Source of the DNA: Alphaproteobacteria bacterium
Lineage (GTDB): Bacteria > Pseudomonadota > Alphaproteobacteria > Kiloniellales > J153
DNA: 15,414 bases
Direction of reading: 5' to 3'
Assembly (NCBI GenBank): GCA_003693905.1
Contig: RFLL01000297.1
Location: 1-15,414 of the forward strand
Position 1 is the first letter of the stretch. Each line of letters starts with the position of its first letter. Below, in pieces: positions 8,240 through 15,133 of the stretch. The notes under the pieces were generated by a model. The model saw only the letters and a list, made by a program, of their open reading frames with translations. It was not told the origin of the DNA and did not search any database. The translations under genes were made by a program, and so were the position numbers.

Positions 8240-9847
8240 ATGACGGTTCTCAAAAGCGCCATCAGCACCCGCTCCGAGGAGTTTCGCCGCAACGCCGAGG
8301 CCCAGCGGGCATTGGTTGCCGATCTGCGGGCCAAGGTCGACCGGATCAAGCTCGGCGGTGGCGCCCGCGCGCGCGAACGCCATCTGGCCCGCGGCAAGTT
8401 GCTGCCGCGCGATCGCATTCGCGCCCTGCTCGATACCGGATCGCCGTTTCTCGAGCTGTCGCAGCTGGCCGCCTACGGCATGTACGACGACGAGGTGCCG
8501 TGCGCCGGGATCATCACCGGCATCGGCCGCGTCGCCGGCCGCGAATGCATGATCGTGGCTAACGATGCCACGGTGAAGGGCGGCACCTACTATCCGATGA
8601 CGGTCAAGAAGCATCTGCGGGCGCAGGAAATTGCGGCGCAGAACCGCCTGCCGTGCCTGTATCTGGTCGATTCCGGCGGTGCCCATCTGCCCAGTCAGGA
8701 CGAAGTGTTCCCCGACCGCGATCATTTCGGACGCATTTTTTTCAACCAGGCCAACATGTCGGCCCGGGGCATTGCGCAGATCGCCCTGGTTCTCGGTTCG
8801 TGCACGGCCGGCGGCGCCTATGTGCCGGCGATGTCGGATGAAAGCGTGATCGTGCGCAATCAGGGCACGATCTTTCTCGGCGGTCCGCCGCTGGTCAAGG
8901 CGGCCACCGGCGAGGTGGTGACGCCCGAGGAGCTCGGCGGTGCCGACGTGCACGGGCGGATCTCCGGCGTCACCGATCACATCGCCGCCAACGACGCCCA
9001 CGCGCTGGCGATCGCCCGGCGTATCGTCGGCAACCTCAACCGGGTCAAGCACCATACGCTCGATCTCGCCGCACCGCGCGATCCGCTCTACGACCCCGAG
9101 GAAATCTACGGCATCGTGCCGGCCGACCTGCGCACCCCCTATGACGTGCGCGAGGTGGTGGCGCGCCTTGTCGACGGCAGCGAGTTCGACGAGTTCAAGG
9201 CGCTTTACGGGACCACGCTGGTGTGCGGGTTTGCCCGCATCCACGGTTATCCCGTGGGCATCCTCGGCAACAACGGCATCCTGTTTTCCGAATCGGCGCT
9301 CAAGGGCGCCCATTTCGTCGAGTTGTGCTGCCAGCGCGGCATCCCGATCGTTTTTTTGCAGAACATCACCGGCTTCATGGTCGGGCGCAAGTACGAGGCC
9401 GGCGGCATCGCCAAGGACGGGGCCAAGCTGGTTACCGCTGTTGCCTGTGCGCGGGTGCCGAAATTCACCGTCATCATCGGCGGCAGCTTTGGCGCCGGCA
9501 ACTATGGCATGTGCGGGCGCGCCTACAGCCCGCGTCTGCTGTGGATGTGGCCGGGGGCGCGCATTTCGGTCATGGGCGGCGAGCAGGCGGCCGAAGTGCT
9601 GAGCACGATCCGCCGCGATGCCCTGGCCAAGGCCGGGCGGGAGTGGCCGGAAGAGGAAGCCCGCGCCTTCAAGACGCCGATTCTGGAACAGTACGAGCGT
9701 CAGGGGCACCCGTACTACGCCTCCGCCCGGTTGTGGGACGACGGCATCATCGACCCGCTCGATACCCGCATGGCGCTGGCGCTGGGCATTTCCGCGGCCC
9801 TCAACGCGCCGATCGAGCCCACGACCTTCGGTGTTTTCAGAATGTGA
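8240..9847 (+). CDS. liuB: Methylcrotonoyl-CoA carboxylase beta (carboxyltransferase) subunit
   Basis: Carboxyltransferase subunit that moves CO2 from biotin to 3-methylcrotonoyl-CoA, giving 3-methylglutaconyl-CoA in leucine catabolism; cytoplasmic alpha6beta6 complex with the liuD product. At 535 residues it has the family's usual length, and it begins in family style ([20 protein letters not shown]). The N-terminal half has [19 protein letters not shown] and the oxyanion loop GSCTAGGAY (186-194). The C-terminal half has the QNITGFMVG region and [11 protein letters not shown] (414-424). These features separate MCC from propionyl- and geranyl-CoA carboxylases with fair certainty; geranyl-CoA carboxylase is the closest alternative, but liuC and HMG-CoA lyase in the same operon favour MCC. 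Two runs of seven T (8736-8742, 9351-9357) are in frame. It is the first gene of the operon. Confidence 0.96.
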
Positions 9848-9853
9848 GGAACC

Positions 9854-10645
9854 ATGCAGCGGCCTCTGTTCATAGAAGAGATCGGCGACGATCACGTGGC
9901 CCGCATCACGCTGACCCGGCCCGAGGTTCACAACGCCTTCAACGATACGCTCATCGCCGAACTGACGACGGTGCTGCGCGGTCTGGGTGACGACGAGCGG
10001 GTGCGCGCCGTCGTTCTCGCCGCACAGGGACGCAGTTTCTCCGCCGGCGCCGATCTCAACTGGATGCAGCGTATGGCCGGCTATTCAGAAGAAGAAAATC
10101 TGAACGACGCCCGGGCTTTGGCGGAGCTGATGCGAACCCTGAACACGCTGCCCAAGCCGACCATGGCGCTGGTCCAAGGGCCCGCCTATGGCGGCGGCGT
10201 CGGGCTGGTCGCCTGCTGCGATATCGCGGTGGCGGCGCAGACCGCCAACTTCTGCCTGTCCGAGGTGCGCCTCGGTCTGATCCCCTCGGTCATTGCGCCC
10301 TATGTCGTTGCCGCCATCGGGGAGCGCGCGGCGCGGCGCTTCTTCCTGACCGCGGAATCGTTCACCGCCGAGGAAGCGCGCGCCGCCGGCCTCGTGCATC
10401 TGGTCGTGCCCGACGAGGCGTTGGAAGACGCCGGCGCACGCATCGTGCGGGCCTTGCTGCGCGGCGGACCGCAGGCGCAGGTCGCGGCCAAGGACCTGAT
10501 CTTCGCCGTCTGCGGGCGCCACGTCGATGACGCCCTGGTCGAAGATACGGCGCAGCGCATTGCACACCAGCGCGCCTCGCAGGAAGGGCGCGAAGGGGTG
10601 GCGGCATTTCTGGAGAAACGCAAGCCGACGTGGATGAAGGACTGA
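9854..10645 (+). CDS. liuC: Enoyl-CoA hydratase/isomerase family, probable methylglutaconyl-CoA hydratase
   Basis: A 263-residue crotonase-fold enzyme, expected to hydrate 3-methylglutaconyl-CoA to HMG-CoA, the step after MCC. The oxyanion-hole segments are [13 protein letters not shown] (about 57-69) and [16 protein letters not shown]; a catalytic Glu (E137) lies in [19 protein letters not shown]. The SAGADLNWM motif and [14 protein letters not shown] are typical of LiuC proteins encoded beside MCC subunits. It begins six bases after liuB, and its ribosome site GAGGA overlaps the liuB stop, so translation is coupled. From sequence alone it could be a general enoyl-CoA hydratase; the operon position makes the specific call likely. 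The frame is complete, ending TWMKD. Confidence 0.93.
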
Positions 10646-11487
10646 GCCCGCCCGTGCGCGCGCCGGGCTCCGGTTGCGCACCTGCGTCCAATCCCGGTTG
10701 CCAATCCGGACCCGGCCCGAAAGCCGGTGCCTGGCTGGTGCGCTGTATCTGCCGCAGCCCGTGGTGGCTGCGGTTGTGGCGCATGTTTCTCGGCGCTTCG
10801 CGCGATCTGGTTCCGATCGTCCTGGTCGTCGCTTTTTTCCAGATCGTCGTTCTGCAGCAGCCGTTTCCCGATCTTGAGCGGGTTCTGATCGGGCTCGTGT
10901 TCGTCGTTGTCGGGCTCAGCCTGTTCGTGCACGGCCTGGAACAGGGCCTGTTTCCGCTGGGCGAGAGCATGGCCCATAGCTTTGCCCGCAAAGGCAGTCT
11001 GAGCGCCCTGCTCGTCTTCGCCTTCTGTCTCGGCTTCGGGACTACGGTGGCCGAACCGGCGTTGATCGCGATCGCCGCCGAAGCGGCCGATGTCGCCGGT
11101 GCCGCCGGGGCCATCCCCGATACCGACGCCGCGCGCGCGACCTATGCCTTGCAATTGCGCCTGACGGTGGCGGTCTCCGTCGGGGCGGCGCTGGTGCTGG
11201 GGGTCTTTCGCATTCTCAAGGGCTGGCCGATCCACCATCTGATCATTGCCGGCTATGTCATCGTGGTCGCAATGACCGCCTTTGCGCCGGAAGAGATCAT
11301 CGGCATCGCCTACGATTCCGGCGGCGTCACCACGTCGACCATCACCGTGCCGCTGGTCACCGCCCTGGGTGTCGGCCTGGCCAGCGTGATCCGCGGCCGC
11401 AATCCGTTGCTCGACGGTTTCGGCCTGATCGCCTTTGCCAGTCTGATGCCGATGATCTTCGTACTGGCCTTCGGCATGATCGTGTAG
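10630..11487 (+). CDS. DUF1538 membrane protein, first of a tandem pair
   Basis: Integral membrane protein of the DUF1538 family, function unknown. About seven hydrophobic segments are visible, beginning at [16 protein letters not shown]. Family signatures shared with its neighbour are [23 protein letters not shown] (T138-E142), [14 protein letters not shown] (Y228 on) and [13 protein letters not shown]. The start is uncertain. The outermost GTG at 10630 overlaps the liuC stop by 16 bases and has GGAGA far upstream, but the first 36 or so residues are Pro/Gly-rich and unlike the family. A GTG at 10738 or an ATG at 10783 may be the true start. The second copy follows after 19 bases, then P-II-like and CBS genes. 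Polar motifs within hydrophobic stretches suggest a transporter or channel, which is inference. Confidence 0.85.
10654..10681 (+). promoter_or_regulatory. Possible hairpin between liuC and the DUF1538 block
   Basis: GTGCGC (10654-10659) can pair with GCGCAC (10676-10681), and inside the loop CCG pairs with CGG. No T run follows, so this is not a standard intrinsic terminator. It could be an RNA stabiliser or attenuating structure between liuC and the downstream genes if the DUF1538 protein really starts at 10738 or 10783. GC-rich DNA gives such pairs by chance fairly often. Confidence 0.25.
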
Positions 11488-11506
11488 CCGGGAGATCCCC
11501 CGTTCG

Positions 11507-12286
11507 ATGGACCTGCTTGCGCAAAGTCTGGGGACGATCTGGGCCACGGTGCGCGATGTGGCGCCGATCGCGGTCATTCTGATCGGGTTTCAGGTCTTCG
11601 TGCTGCGCCGGCGGCCCCCCAATCTGCGTCGTCTCGTGGCCGGTTTCGGCTATGTTCTGATCGGGCTCAGCCTGTTTCTGATCGGCCTTGAGCAGGCGCT
11701 GTTTCCCCTCGGCGAAACCATGGCCCGGCAGTTGACGGCGGACGTCGCCCCTGGTGGCGGGACGCCGGACTGGCGCGATTACGGCTGGGTCTATGCGTTC
11801 GCCGCGGCAATCGGCTTTGCCACCACGGTGGCCGAGCCGGCGCTGATCGCCGTATCACTCAAGGCGGAGGAGGTCTCCGGCGGGACCATCAGCCCCTGGG
11901 GCCTGCGCATCGCGGTGGCCGTAGGGGTGGCGGTGGGGGTTGCGCTCGGCGCCTTTCGCATTGTCACCGGCACGCCGTTGCCGCTCTATATCATGGTCGG
12001 CTACGTGATTGTAATCGTGCAGACCCTGCGCACGATCCGCACCATCATACCCTTGGCCTATGATTCCGGCGGGGTGACGACCTCGACCGTAACCGTGCCG
12101 ATTGTCACCGCGCTGGGCCTTGGTCTGGCGTCCAGCATCCCCGGACGCAGCCCGCTGGTCGACGGCTTCGGGTTGATTGCCTTTGCCAGCCTGTTTCCAA
12201 TCATGTCGGTGATGGGCTATGCAATGCTGAGCGAATGGCTGCGCCGGCGGCGGGTCGCCGGGAGCGGCGATGACGCAGAACGATGA
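11507..12286 (+). CDS. DUF1538 membrane protein, second of a tandem pair
   Basis: A 259-residue DUF1538 membrane protein, paralogous to the gene just upstream. The same signatures appear in the same order: [23 protein letters not shown] (T106-E110), [25 protein letters not shown] (Y185 on; the DSGGVTTST core is identical in both) and [13 protein letters not shown]. About seven hydrophobic segments are seen; a more polar loop around 75-90 (DVAPGGGTPDWRD) and a basic C-terminal tail (EWLRRRRV) are specific to this copy. The ATG lies 19 bases after the first copy's stop; GGGAGA is the nearest purine-rich site, somewhat far away. The two copies probably arose by duplication and may form a heteromeric membrane complex. 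The substrate is unknown. Confidence 0.9.
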   Translation: MDLLAQSLGTIWATVRDVAPIAVILIGFQVFVLRRRPPNLRRLVAGFGYVLIGLSLFLIGLEQALFPLGETMARQLTADVAPGGGTPDWRDYGWVYAFAAAIGFATTVAEPALIAVSLKAEEVSGGTISPWGLRIAVAVGVAVGVALGAFRIVTGTPLPLYIMVGYVIVIVQTLRTIRTIIPLAYDSGGVTTSTVTVPIVTALGLGLASSIPGRSPLVDGFGLIAFASLFPIMSVMGYAMLSEWLRRRRVAGSGDDAER

Positions 12287-12308
12287 TCCGGGGTGGTGAG
12301 GAGGTGCC

Positions 12309-12659
12309 ATGCATTTCAAGCTGATCATGGCCATAGTCGAAGACACCCGCACCGACGCGGTGGTGCGTGCCGCGCGCGAAGGCGGGGCCACCGGGTGCAC
12401 GGTCATCACCTGCGTGCGCGGCGAGGGCCTGAGACCGGGGAAGACGTTTCTCGGCCTCGACCTGACCAGCGCCCGCGATGTTCTGCTGTTCGTGGTGGCG
12501 GCCCCGCTGGCACGTGAAATTCTGGAAACGATCGCCAAGGCGGGACACTTCGACGAGGAACCGGGCTCCGGCATCGCGTTGCAGATCGAAATCGAAGATG
12601 CGGTCGGTCTGAAATCGCAACTGCCGGCAATACAGCACGAAATCGAGGAAGACGTATGA
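12309..12659 (+). CDS. Divergent P-II-like signalling protein
   Basis: A 116-residue protein of the P-II/GlnB-like fold. It starts with the beta strand MHFKLIMAIVED and a helix, then GATGCTVITCVRGEG, where canonical P-II has G-TVTEVKGFG. The C-terminal GSGIALQIEIEDAVGL (86-101) matches the canonical GDGKIF-x-VEEAV region. The T-loop is short (LRPGKTFLGLDL, about 41-52) and lacks the uridylylated Tyr of GlnB/GlnK, so classical nitrogen control is unlikely. P-II proteins bind ATP/ADP and 2-oxoglutarate and often gate membrane transporters, as GlnK does AmtB; by analogy this one may regulate the DUF1538 pair. GAGGAGG precedes the ATG. It overlaps the CBS gene by four bases (ATGA), so the two are translationally coupled. 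Ligand and partner are inferred. Confidence 0.85.
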   Translation: MHFKLIMAIVEDTRTDAVVRAAREGGATGCTVITCVRGEGLRPGKTFLGLDLTSARDVLLFVVAAPLAREILETIAKAGHFDEEPGSGIALQIEIEDAVGLKSQLPAIQHEIEEDV

Positions 12660-13057
12660 CCACCACCGATTATGCCAAGGTCCGCGATGCGATGACCCCT
12701 TCGGTGCGCACCATCGGTGCCATGGCCACGGTGCGCGAGGCGATCGCGGAAATGCGCGAGGCCGGCGTCAGCTCCCTGGTCGTCGAGCGGCGCGACGAAG
12801 CCGACGAGGCCGGGCTGCTGACGGTCTCCGACATCGCGCGCGAGGTGATCGCCAGGAATTGCTCGGTCGATCGCGTCAACGTCTACGAGATCATGTCCAA
12901 GCCGGTGCTGACCCTGCCGGCGGACATGAACATCAAATACGCCGTGCGTCTGCTGGTGCGTTTTTCCCTGTCGCGCGCCCTGGTGGTCGACGAACATCGC
13001 CAGCCGGTGGGAATCGTGACCCTGCGGGATCTGGTGTTGCGTCACGGTGCCGATTGA
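12656..13057 (+). CDS. Tandem CBS-domain protein
   Basis: A 133-residue protein made almost wholly of two CBS domains (about 8-66 and 77-131), each with a family signature: VRDAMTPSVRTIGAMATVREAI...GLLTVSDIAREVI and VYEIMSKPVLTLPADMNIKYAV...PVGIVTLRDLVLR. CBS pairs (Bateman modules) bind AMP, ATP or other adenosyl ligands and act as energy sensors, often on transporters, channels or enzymes. There is no catalytic or membrane domain, so it must act on another protein; the neighbouring DUF1538/P-II genes are the natural candidates. It starts inside the P-II stop codon (ATGA overlap). A 57-base gap without an evident terminator separates it from liuD. The specific ligand is unknown. Confidence 0.93.
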   Translation: MTTTDYAKVRDAMTPSVRTIGAMATVREAIAEMREAGVSSLVVERRDEADEAGLLTVSDIAREVIARNCSVDRVNVYEIMSKPVLTLPADMNIKYAVRLLVRFSLSRALVVDEHRQPVGIVTLRDLVLRHGAD

Positions 13058-13114: not shown

Positions 13115-15133
13115 ATGTTCGACAAGATTCTGATTGCCAACCGGGGCGAAATCGCCTGTCGCATCGCCCGCACCGCCCGACGCATGGGGCTGCGCACGGT
13201 TGCGGTGTATTCAACGGCGGATGTCCGCGCCGCCCATGTCGCCGCCGCCGACGAGGCCTATCCGATCGGTCCTGCCGAGCCGACGCAAAGTTATCTGAAC
13301 ATTGACGCGATGATCGCCGCCGCCCGCAAGGCCGGGGCGCAGGCGGTTCATCCCGGGTACGGTTTCTTGGCGGAAAACGCCGATTTCGCGGCGGCCTGTG
13401 CGGCCGCCGACCTGGTCTTCATCGGGCCGCCGGTCGAAGCGATCCGGGCCATGGGCTCGAAAAGCGCAGCCAAGGCGCTGATGGAAAAGGCCGGCGTGCC
13501 GCTGGTGCCCGGCTATCACGGTGCCGACCAGTCGCCGGCGCGTCTGGCCGCGGCGGCCGACGAAATCGGCTTTCCGGTCCTGATCAAGCCGTCGGCCGGC
13601 GGCGGCGGCAAGGGCATGCGGATCGTGCATCGGCGCGAAGACTTCGCCGCGGCCCTGGATTCGGCCAAGCGCGAGGCGCAGGCCGCCTTTGGCGACGACC
13701 GCGTTCTGATCGAAGCTTACCTGACCCATCCCCGCCACGTCGAAGTGCAGATCTTCGCCGATACCCACGGCCACGTGATCCACCTGTTCGAGCGCGACTG
13801 TTCGGTTCAGCGCCGCTATCAGAAGGTGATGGAAGAAGCTCCGGCCCCGGGCCTGACGGCGCAGCACCGCACCGCCATGGGCGATGCCGCGGTGGCCGCG
13901 GCGCGAGCCGTCGACTACGTCGGCGCCGGCACGGTCGAATTCATCGTGACCGGCGAGCGGTTCTATTTCATGGAAATGAACACCCGCCTTCAGGTCGAGC
14001 ACCCGGTGAGCGAGATGATCACGGGGCAGGATCTGGTCGAGTGGCAGATCCGCGTCGCGGCCGGGGAGCCGTTGCCGTGCGGGCAGGACGATCTGACGAT
14101 CACCGGTCATGCCATCGAGGCGCGGTTGTATGCCGAGGATCCGGCGCGGGACTTTCTTCCCGCAACGGGGCGTCTCAGCCATCTGCATCTGCCGGCCGAA
14201 GACGCCCACGTGCGCGTCGACAGCGGCGTGCGTGCCGGCGACGAGATCACCGTCTACTATGATCCCATGCTGGCCAAGGTGATCGTATGGGATCGCGACC
14301 GCACCAGTGCGCTGGTGCGCCTGCGCCGGGTGCTGGCCGAAACCCGGATCGCCGGGGTGGCGACCAATCTTTCATTTCTGGCCGCGGTGGCGGCGCACCC
14401 GGCCTTTGCCGCAGGGGCCGTCGATACCGGGTTCATCGAGCGCCACAAGGCCGAGCTGATCCCCGTGCCGGGGCCGGTTTCGGACGAAGTGCTCGCTGTG
14501 GCCAGCCTGGCCGAGCTGCTCCTGCGACGGGCCGAGGCCAAAGCGCAGGCGCGCCGATCCAGCGAACCGTTCTCGCCGTGGTTCGATTCTTCGGGCTGGC
14601 GCCTCAACGTCGATACCCACAGCATTCTGTCGCTGCGCGACAACGGGCGCGAGATCGATATCACCGTCTACTATCTGAGCAACGGTTACCGGCTGGTGCT
14701 GCCCGGTGGCGAGGTCGAGGCGCGCGGCGAGCTGTGCGAAGACGGTTCGCTGCTGGTCGATCTCGACGGGCGCCGCTTCACCGCCGCGGTGGTGCGCGAA
14801 CGCGGCGCCATGACCGTGATGCTGCACGGTGGCGCGCATCGCCTGGAGATCGTCGATCCCCTCGAATCGGCGCACGGAGACGACGTCGGCGCCGACCGGG
14901 TCGCCGCGCCGATGCCCGGCAAGGTGGTCAAGCTGCATGTCGAAAGCGGGCAGACGGTCTCGCGCGGCGCGCCGCTGATCGTGCTCGAAGCCATGAAAAT
15001 GGAACATACGCTGGTGGCCCCGGCCGACGGGACGGTGGGCGAGATCTATTACCGGCCCGGGGATCTGGTCGAGGAGGGAGCTGAATTGCTGTCGTTCGAT
15101 CCGACTTCCGGATCGCCGTCGGCGGCGGCGTAA
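13115..15133 (+). CDS. liuD: Methylcrotonoyl-CoA carboxylase alpha (biotin-carrying) subunit
   Basis: Biotin-dependent acyl-CoA carboxylase alpha subunit, 672 residues: it uses ATP and bicarbonate to carboxylate its own biotin and hands CO2 to the LiuB carboxyltransferase. Biotin carboxylase starts with FDKILIANRGEIACRIARTA; the ATP-grasp Gly loop GGGGKGM is at 162-168; ERDCSVQRRYQKVMEEAPAP and EMNTRLQVEHPV (287-298) follow; the carboxylase C-domain has IEARLYAEDPARDFLPATG. The C-terminal biotinyl domain carries EAMKMEH with K628 as biotin attachment site. The length fits MCC alpha. The frame is open to a GTG at 13097; the ATG at 13115 gives the usual MFDKILIAN start. It is separated from liuB-liuC by the DUF1538/P-II/CBS block. 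A propionyl- or geranyl-CoA carboxylase alpha subunit is the main alternative. Confidence 0.95.
   Translation: MFDKILIANRGEIACRIARTARRMGLRTVAVYSTADVRAAHVAAADEAYPIGPAEPTQSYLNIDAMIAAARKAGAQAVHPGYGFLAENADFAAACAAADLVFIGPPVEAIRAMGSKSAAKALMEKAGVPLVPGYHGADQSPARLAAAADEIGFPVLIKPSAGGGGKGMRIVHRREDFAAALDSAKREAQAAFGDDRVLIEAYLTHPRHVEVQIFADTHGHVIHLFERDCSVQRRYQKVMEEAPAPGLTAQHRTAMGDAAVAAARAVDYVGAGTVEFIVTGERFYFMEMNTRLQVEHPVSEMITGQDLVEWQIRVAAGEPLPCGQDDLTITGHAIEARLYAEDPARDFLPATGRLSHLHLPAEDAHVRVDSGVRAGDEITVYYDPMLAKVIVWDRDRTSALVRLRRVLAETRIAGVATNLSFLAAVAAHPAFAAGAVDTGFIERHKAELIPVPGPVSDEVLAVASLAELLLRRAEAKAQARRSSEPFSPWFDSSGWRLNVDTHSILSLRDNGREIDITVYYLSNGYRLVLPGGEVEARGELCEDGSLLVDLDGRRFTAAVVRERGAMTVMLHGGAHRLEIVDPLESAHGDDVGADRVAAPMPGKVVKLHVESGQTVSRGAPLIVLEAMKMEHTLVAPADGTVGEIYYRPGDLVEEGAELLSFDPTSGSPSAAA

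Follow-up and report, generated by a model that had tools for sequence, protein, structure and literature searches.

What does a small P-II-like protein do beside a pair of homologous DUF1538 membrane proteins, and why is a protein with two CBS domains encoded directly behind it? These questions are raised by four consecutive genes on a 15,414-nucleotide stretch of an Alphaproteobacteria bacterium genome (contig RFLL01000297.1, assembly GCA_003693905.1), which was analysed as a whole and is referred to here as the window. The assembly is 60% complete and consists of 455 contigs, with the window contig being C28 of genome G000 in our numbering. Our best explanation, which we hold with moderate confidence, is that the genes encode a split cation/proton antiporter of the UmpAB type that would be gated by the P-II-like protein and tuned by the CBS protein. 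The module comprises the following features:

10738..11487, + strand: umpA-like DUF1538 membrane protein (Pfam DUF1538, 4.1e-69; predicted N-in/C-out)
11507..12286, + strand: umpB-like DUF1538 membrane protein (Pfam DUF1538, 1.5e-64; predicted N-out/C-in)
12309..12659, + strand: divergent P-II-like protein, 116 residues (Pfam P-II, 3.1e-11)
12656..13057, + strand: two-CBS-domain protein, 133 residues (Pfam CBS, 9e-23, two stretches)

Analysis of open reading frames (ORFs) and Pfam matches found all four frames open on the + strand, from 10738 or 10783 to 13057, which bears out the arrangement described in the first-pass annotation of this DNA: a tandem DUF1538 pair and then P-II-like and two-CBS genes, all on one strand, with the last two overlapping by ATGA (12656-12659). 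The module start proposed there, GTG 10630, falls within the frame of an upstream enoyl-CoA hydratase gene, which runs to 10645, and has to be given up. Judged by eye from the sequence and from the N-terminal length of relatives, umpA likely starts at GTG 10738 or ATG 10783, and the latter start was used in our analyses of umpA.

The DUF1538 pair resembles the UmpAB antiporter

Both membrane proteins match Pfam PF07556 with scores (232.5 and 217.6 bits) above the cut-off of 22.6. With the NCBIfam models NF041627/NF041628 (UmpA and UmpB), the first protein scores 369.6 bits as UmpA versus 183.9 as UmpB, and the second scores 331.3 bits as UmpB versus 199 as UmpA; by these profile scores the A/B assignment is clear. 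Because each protein scores best with its own model yet stays under the equivalog cut-off (490 for UmpA and 500 for UmpB), we regard the pair as UmpAB-like and not as a UmpAB equivalog.

These models and earlier assays supersede the first-pass view that DUF1538 has no known function. UmpAB of Halomonas zhaodongensis was described, on the basis of co-immunoprecipitation and vesicle assays, as a heterodimer with Na+(Li+,K+)/H+ antiport activity (Meng et al. 2017, PMC5484666). The umpAB genes were cloned by complementation, antiport was shown in E. coli, and the active clone was a 4.2-kb fragment with four ORFs, which encode a truncated citrate transporter, an efflux permease, UmpA and UmpB (PMC5484666). 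Neither a P-II nor a CBS gene is on this active fragment, so the two soluble proteins would be dispensable for basic activity in E. coli, and they look like regulators.

The substrate of the window pair is inferred, given the scores under the equivalog cut-offs and the finding that the UmpA cut-off is exceeded in none of the 293 genomes of the order sample described below. A UmpAB-like pair might therefore carry another solute, such as ammonium or an anion, whether organic or inorganic, with the P-II-like protein reporting carbon/nitrogen status as GlnK does for AmtB. In addition to these scores, such a reading can draw on the ammonium, nitrate, urea and bicarbonate carried by known P-II-controlled transporters (PMC10710835) and on the statement of the UmpAB authors that theirs was the first DUF1538 pair to be analysed (PMC5484666). 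However, the one pair assayed is a Na+(Li+,K+)/H+ antiporter (PMC5484666), and all four genes are present in Vibrio xiamenensis (L103) and Ca. Electrothrix gigas (L084), which are organisms named in UmpAB papers. We therefore consider a different solute unlikely and keep the cation/proton antiporter as the preferred reading.

No PDB relative of DUF1538 was found by sequence at E values up to 10, and hhalign found no internal repeat inside a single DUF1538 domain (probability 0.6%). One protein, P0001, has 759 residues and by eye three DUF1538 repeats, although it is a single sequence.

P-II genes accompany DUF1538 genes in three genome samples

The first-pass annotation had asked whether these gene families neighbour each other elsewhere. 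Searching named genomes with a UmpA profile yielded at least 586 relatives, and the best 80 were analysed. Four of these loci end before the P-II position (L036, L050, L073 and L079); in all 76 uncut loci that remain, umpA, umpB and the P-II gene occur in this order on a single strand. A CBS gene is present in 75 of the 76, with one such gene cut by a contig end, and only L048 (Aliagarivorans) is without it. The distance from the P-II gene to the CBS gene was measured at 74 named loci, and 64 of them have a value of -4.

A second sample consisted of 249 genomes of the window's phylum, 105 of which contain DUF1538. Of the best 150 DUF1538 matches listed for this sample, 144 had a strong same-strand match to the P-II-like protein no more than 3 kb away, while a rough estimate suggests that random placement would give such a neighbour in well under 1% of cases. 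Among the 29 best loci of the phylum besides the window (L003-L031), P-II is present in 28 and CBS in 20, with some flanks too short to contain a CBS gene. The third sample covered 293 genomes around the order of G138, with a match in 58; of the best 30 loci read, one was cut, and the remaining 29 show P-II after umpB in 28 cases and CBS in 27. The P-II and CBS neighbours thus recur far beyond this genome, which removes the possibility that their proximity is peculiar to it.

The first-pass annotation also proposed a membrane complex controlled by two soluble sensors. Conservation of the neighbourhood favours that association, but the two sensors are unequal, as P-II is near-constant and CBS is missing from the flanking DNA read for several groups.

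The P-II partner persists when the transporter genes are fused

Other gene layouts show the same inequality. Ten loci encode a fused UmpAB of 494-506 residues, each with P-II and CBS genes (L006, L010, L118, L129, L130, L181, L182 and L186-L188). Long fused DUF1538 proteins of 569-652 residues (L171-L180 and L190, chosen by their DUF1538 match) have P-II downstream in 11 of 11 loci and no CBS gene within the stretch read. At L138-L140 a DUF1538 gene adjoins a weak P-II match; these loci were chosen by that P-II match and are excluded from the counts of P-II after DUF1538. DUF1538 also occurs in nine plasmid records, and in the seven examined, two of which lacked gene annotation at the locus and were read from ORFs, P-II lies directly downstream in all seven and CBS in none. 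P-II is thus a near-constant partner of DUF1538, and CBS is an optional one.

The number of P-II stretches varies as well. In the long loci L173, L176, L177, L178, L180 and L190, the P-II gene is followed by another small gene that is P-II-like by eye; of the three second proteins searched with Pfam, that of L178 matched P-II below the threshold (E 0.024), and those of L173 and L177 had no match. At L171 (1899-3161), L172, L174, L175 and L179, a single protein of 379-420 residues contains three P-II-like stretches, of which the middle one is clear and the outer two are weak, with the third of L179 not significant; Pfam P-II is found in one stretch of L171 and two of L175. Each P-II protein of the five clostridial plasmid loci contains two P-II stretches, the first being weak in L192, and Pfam, applied to three of the five, reports two stretches for L191 and one each for L192 and L195. 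The plasmid P-II proteins of Methylocystis and Chelativorans have one domain. We conclude that a layout with two P-II genes apparently exists, while the evidence for three P-II-like domains per protein is weaker.

Several single loci are described here for their own sake. The three-stretch protein beside a long fused DUF1538 is a possible covalent P-II pseudo-trimer. At L118 (2496-6687), L181 (2642-7603) and L182 (2541-7524), double modules occur in which a fused UmpAB with P-II and CBS adjoins a separate umpA-umpB pair with its own P-II, and the second module of L181 and L182 additionally has its own CBS gene and an extra upstream P-II gene. The Chelativorans locus L194 (4004-5342) lies on a plasmid typed conjugative and may be an incomplete copy, as the annotation gives its first DUF1538 gene only some 90 residues. 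At L189 (G501:C36), a CBS gene of the family lies near a very short DUF1538 match with no P-II, and may be the remnant of a module.

The module P-II protein lacks canonical phosphate-binding residues

The P-II-like protein of the window matches Pfam P-II with 43.9 bits against a cut-off of 25. A canonical P-II of the same genome lies elsewhere (G000:C234) and served as the alignment reference; relative to it, the module protein has a T-loop region that is five residues shorter and lacks the YRGAEY motif. In canonical GlnB/GlnK, R38, K90, R101 and R103 are the basic residues that bind the ATP phosphates, and Tyr51 is a functional residue in the T-loop. The window protein has L, I, G and K, respectively, in the columns of those four residues. 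Across 77 module P-II proteins, the K90 column holds I, V or M in all 77, the R101 column holds G in all 77, the R38 column is without K or R in all 77, and the R103 column is mostly A or S, with R in five. Nine positions (G26, G29, G38, G40, F47, G49, G88, G100 and Q104 in window numbering) are invariant in 77 of 77, and several of these are missing from the canonical P-II of this genome, a pattern that hints at another ligand or another mode. Judged by its alignment, the module P-II is a divergent member of the P-II superfamily without the canonical GlnB/GlnK phosphate-binding residues or T-loop, and we infer that its ligand would differ from canonically bound ATP/ADP.

The nucleotide-binding motif of CBS domains is G-h-x-T/S-x-x-D. 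The two-CBS protein of the window has GLLTVSD in CBS1 and GIVTLRD in CBS2. The protein is probably an adenine-nucleotide sensor. Among 75 proteins of the CBS family, the D of the motif is kept in 72 in CBS1 and in 42 in CBS2, and the T/S position of CBS1 is L in 32 and T in 15, which indicates that the motif is not uniform across the family. The best-scoring solved relative of the window CBS protein, by sequence, is CBS-CP12 (5nmu).

UmpA and UmpB are predicted to have opposite orientations

We counted lysine and arginine residues per loop under a seven-helix layout and subtracted the sum of the odd loops (1, 3, 5 and the C-terminus) from that of the even loops (the N-terminus, 2, 4 and 6); seven segments are likewise predicted in the UmpAB paper (PMC5484666). 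The difference is +5 for window UmpA and -8 for window UmpB. UmpA is positive in 76 of 76 named loci and UmpB negative in 74 of 76, the fused proteins have positive N-halves and negative C-halves in 16 of 16 each, and the long proteins have positive N-halves in 11 of 13 and negative C-halves in 13 of 13; because the loop limits were set by hand once the charge and hydropathy of this very family had been viewed, these results are partly post hoc. For the clostridial proteins the limits were fixed beforehand, none of these proteins having been used in setting them, and the result was 5 of 5 positive and 5 of 5 negative. Rows within each group are related and not independent, and the sign agrees across architectures and two phyla.

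Read most simply, the opposite loop-charge bias would make UmpA N-in/C-out and UmpB N-out/C-in. On these predictions, UmpA and UmpB are apparently two oppositely inserted halves of a split inverted-repeat transporter, for which inverted dual-topology dimers are the comparison. The words "topology" and "inverted" are absent from the main text of the UmpAB paper (PMC5484666).

A proposed mechanism and its alternatives

The starting point is what was observed, namely a conserved set of genes, two halves with opposing charge bias and an altered P-II site. In the proposed mechanism, the homologous seven-helix proteins UmpA and UmpB would pair antiparallel to form one inverted-repeat antiporter (Na+, Li+, K+ vs H+), whose halves have separate genes in the window and are fused into a single gene in many relatives. 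As a presumed trimer like other P-II proteins, the P-II-like protein would dock at the cytoplasmic face, which is predicted to consist of the N-terminus and even loops of UmpA and the odd loops and basic C-tail of UmpB. There it would open or shut antiport according to a small-molecule ligand bound otherwise than in the canonical ATP-phosphate mode, and the two-CBS protein, in those lineages that have it, would add a nucleotide signal for tuning this complex. The binding and gating by P-II, the direction of its effect and the ligands of both sensors are proposed here by analogy with known systems.

Alternatively, the P-II-like and CBS proteins could be merely co-transcribed with the transporter genes and act on other cytoplasmic targets. 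P-II relatives that stand without an adjoining DUF1538 gene fit such a role, as some of them lie near a gene that by eye resembles argB (N-acetylglutamate kinase; L116, L120 and L126), and neither Pfam P-II nor CBS occurs in any of the best 120 of 6538 fused-UmpAB matches. On the other hand, P-II adjoins DUF1538 in Pseudomonadota and Bacillota under every gene layout, and the P-II layout changes along with the transporter type, which makes co-transcription without function at the transporter still less probable than a different solute. Further P-II relatives without a DUF1538 gene directly beside them were seen at L112-L115, L117, L119 and L121-L125, and many such genomes hold a DUF1538 module elsewhere.

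Several observations weigh against a P-II-gated antiporter. P-II is absent beside umpAB at G121:C189 and G093:C78, which account for two each of the six DUF1538 rows without P-II in the phylum sample; the other two (G084 and G116) are possibly explained by a contig break, since a P-II match sits near the end of another contig. At L168 the P-II gene is divergently placed. No listed DUF1538 lies near 25 of 103 strong matches to this P-II family, some of which are explained by contig ends or by DUF1538 genes outside the listed matches, and L136 does carry a DUF1538 piece. Three genomes that are 95-99% complete (G022, G117 and G145) hold a P-II relative and no DUF1538 match at all. The loop-charge difference is zero in 2 of 76 UmpB proteins, 2 of 13 long N-halves are negative, and the window proteins fall under the equivalog cut-offs as described above. 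Finally, only P0241 and P0242, among the best 120 of 3239 matches, carry both the P-II and CBS Pfam domains. We did not use these two fusions as evidence, because they are single sequences with residues missing at the junction and may be assembly errors.

The leucine-catabolism genes look like a local setting

Outside the module, the window contains genes that led the first-pass annotation to place it inside a leucine-degradation operon:

8240-9847: carboxyltransferase, probably methylcrotonyl-CoA carboxylase (MCC) beta (profile matches), neighbour
9854..10645, + strand: enoyl-CoA hydratase (profile matches), context outside the module
13115..15133, + strand: biotin carboxylase, MCC-alpha type (Pfam BT_MCC_alpha above cut-off), context outside the module

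The biotin carboxylase start at ATG 13115 was chosen by eye, and the analyses used GTG 13097. At the locus, no sigma-70-type promoter-like site was found, which is little informative as only 0.4 would be expected by chance, and the five terminator-like sites found, against an expectation of 1.5, each lie at a gene or within one and were not used as evidence.

Because the module lies between enoyl-CoA hydratase and MCC-alpha, on the same strand as these neighbours and with fairly short gaps, it could serve leucine catabolism. However, MCC genes lie beside the module in none of the 80 named relatives, whose flanks cover up to 6 kb and are in some cases much shorter. Enoyl-CoA hydratase occurs in the flanks of two of the 80, as distant matches (27% and 32% identity), a PALP match occurs in those of one named relative, and no flanking family is found at more than 14 of 75 loci. 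With flanks this variable and MCC genes in 0 of 80, the unit that is kept together is the module and not the leucine operon, which looks like a local setting. A role in leucine catabolism is thus highly improbable, and we return to the P-II-gated antiporter.

Significance and relation to known systems

We also hold, more tentatively than the proposal for the window itself, that DUF1538 proteins may be widespread, anciently P-II-controlled secondary transporters, in which an inverted-repeat antiporter is either split into opposite subunits or fused. A dedicated P-II-like gate would have a domain number (one or two genes, two or three domains) adapted to two-fold and not three-fold pseudo-symmetry, and CBS would have been added in one large group. 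That two- and three-domain P-II proteins beside fused transporters fit the transporter's symmetry is speculation. If the proposal is true, a P-II protein would be dedicated to a heterodimeric Na+/K+/H+ antiporter family and pH and salt homeostasis would be tied to metabolic signalling, two- and three-domain P-II partners would allow a test of how P-II symmetry matches its target, and at least 6538 DUF1538-type and at least 6590 P-II-type protein cluster matches could gain a testable role.

Antiport by UmpAB is already known, and as far as we found, the link of P-II to this transporter family, with an unusual regulator, is new. The terms "P-II", "PII" and "CBS" are absent from the UmpAB paper's main text (PMC5484666). 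No P-II or CBS partner of DUF1538/UmpAB was found in term searches of PMC5484666, PMC12093952, PMC10030654, PMC13255231, PMC5996927, PMC6055358 and PMC7221264, in which unhyphenated "PII" was not checked throughout; the sole "PII" match, in PMC7221264, is part of a sequence motif. A link between DUF1538/UmpAB and P-II or CBS was likewise not found in the literature as judged by titles and the starts of abstracts, with most subscription papers and preprints outside this coverage.

Known systems share single features with the module. As in GlnK-AmtB, a P-II gene is linked to a transporter gene, and the window P-II would likewise gate from the cytoplasm; it differs from GlnK by a shorter T-loop region and by having no equivalents of K90 and R101. 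A further difference lies in the targets. AmtB is a trimer (PMC10710835), whereas UmpAB is described as a heterodimer (PMC5484666). UmpAB of H. zhaodongensis is, like the window pair, a tandem homologous DUF1538 membrane pair, and the window differs by its P-II-like and CBS genes, neither of which turned up in a term search of that paper (PMC5484666). PsmrAB is likewise a single transporter made from two homologous genes, but it has three transmembrane segments in contrast to the seven of UmpAB and, according to the UmpAB paper, no identity with it (PMC5484666). In SbtB-SbtA, a divergent P-II-like protein also regulates a secondary transporter, in that case for bicarbonate (PMC10710835), whereas SbtB matches the P-II profile weakly (39/115 positions) and SbtA belongs to another transporter family. 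Lastly, the window CBS protein can be likened to the CBS pairs that act as transporter nucleotide sensors in OpuA, CorB and MgtE (PMC10710835), and it differs from these in being a separate small protein that is found in part of the family. To our knowledge, the AmtB family is unrelated to the DUF1538 transporters.

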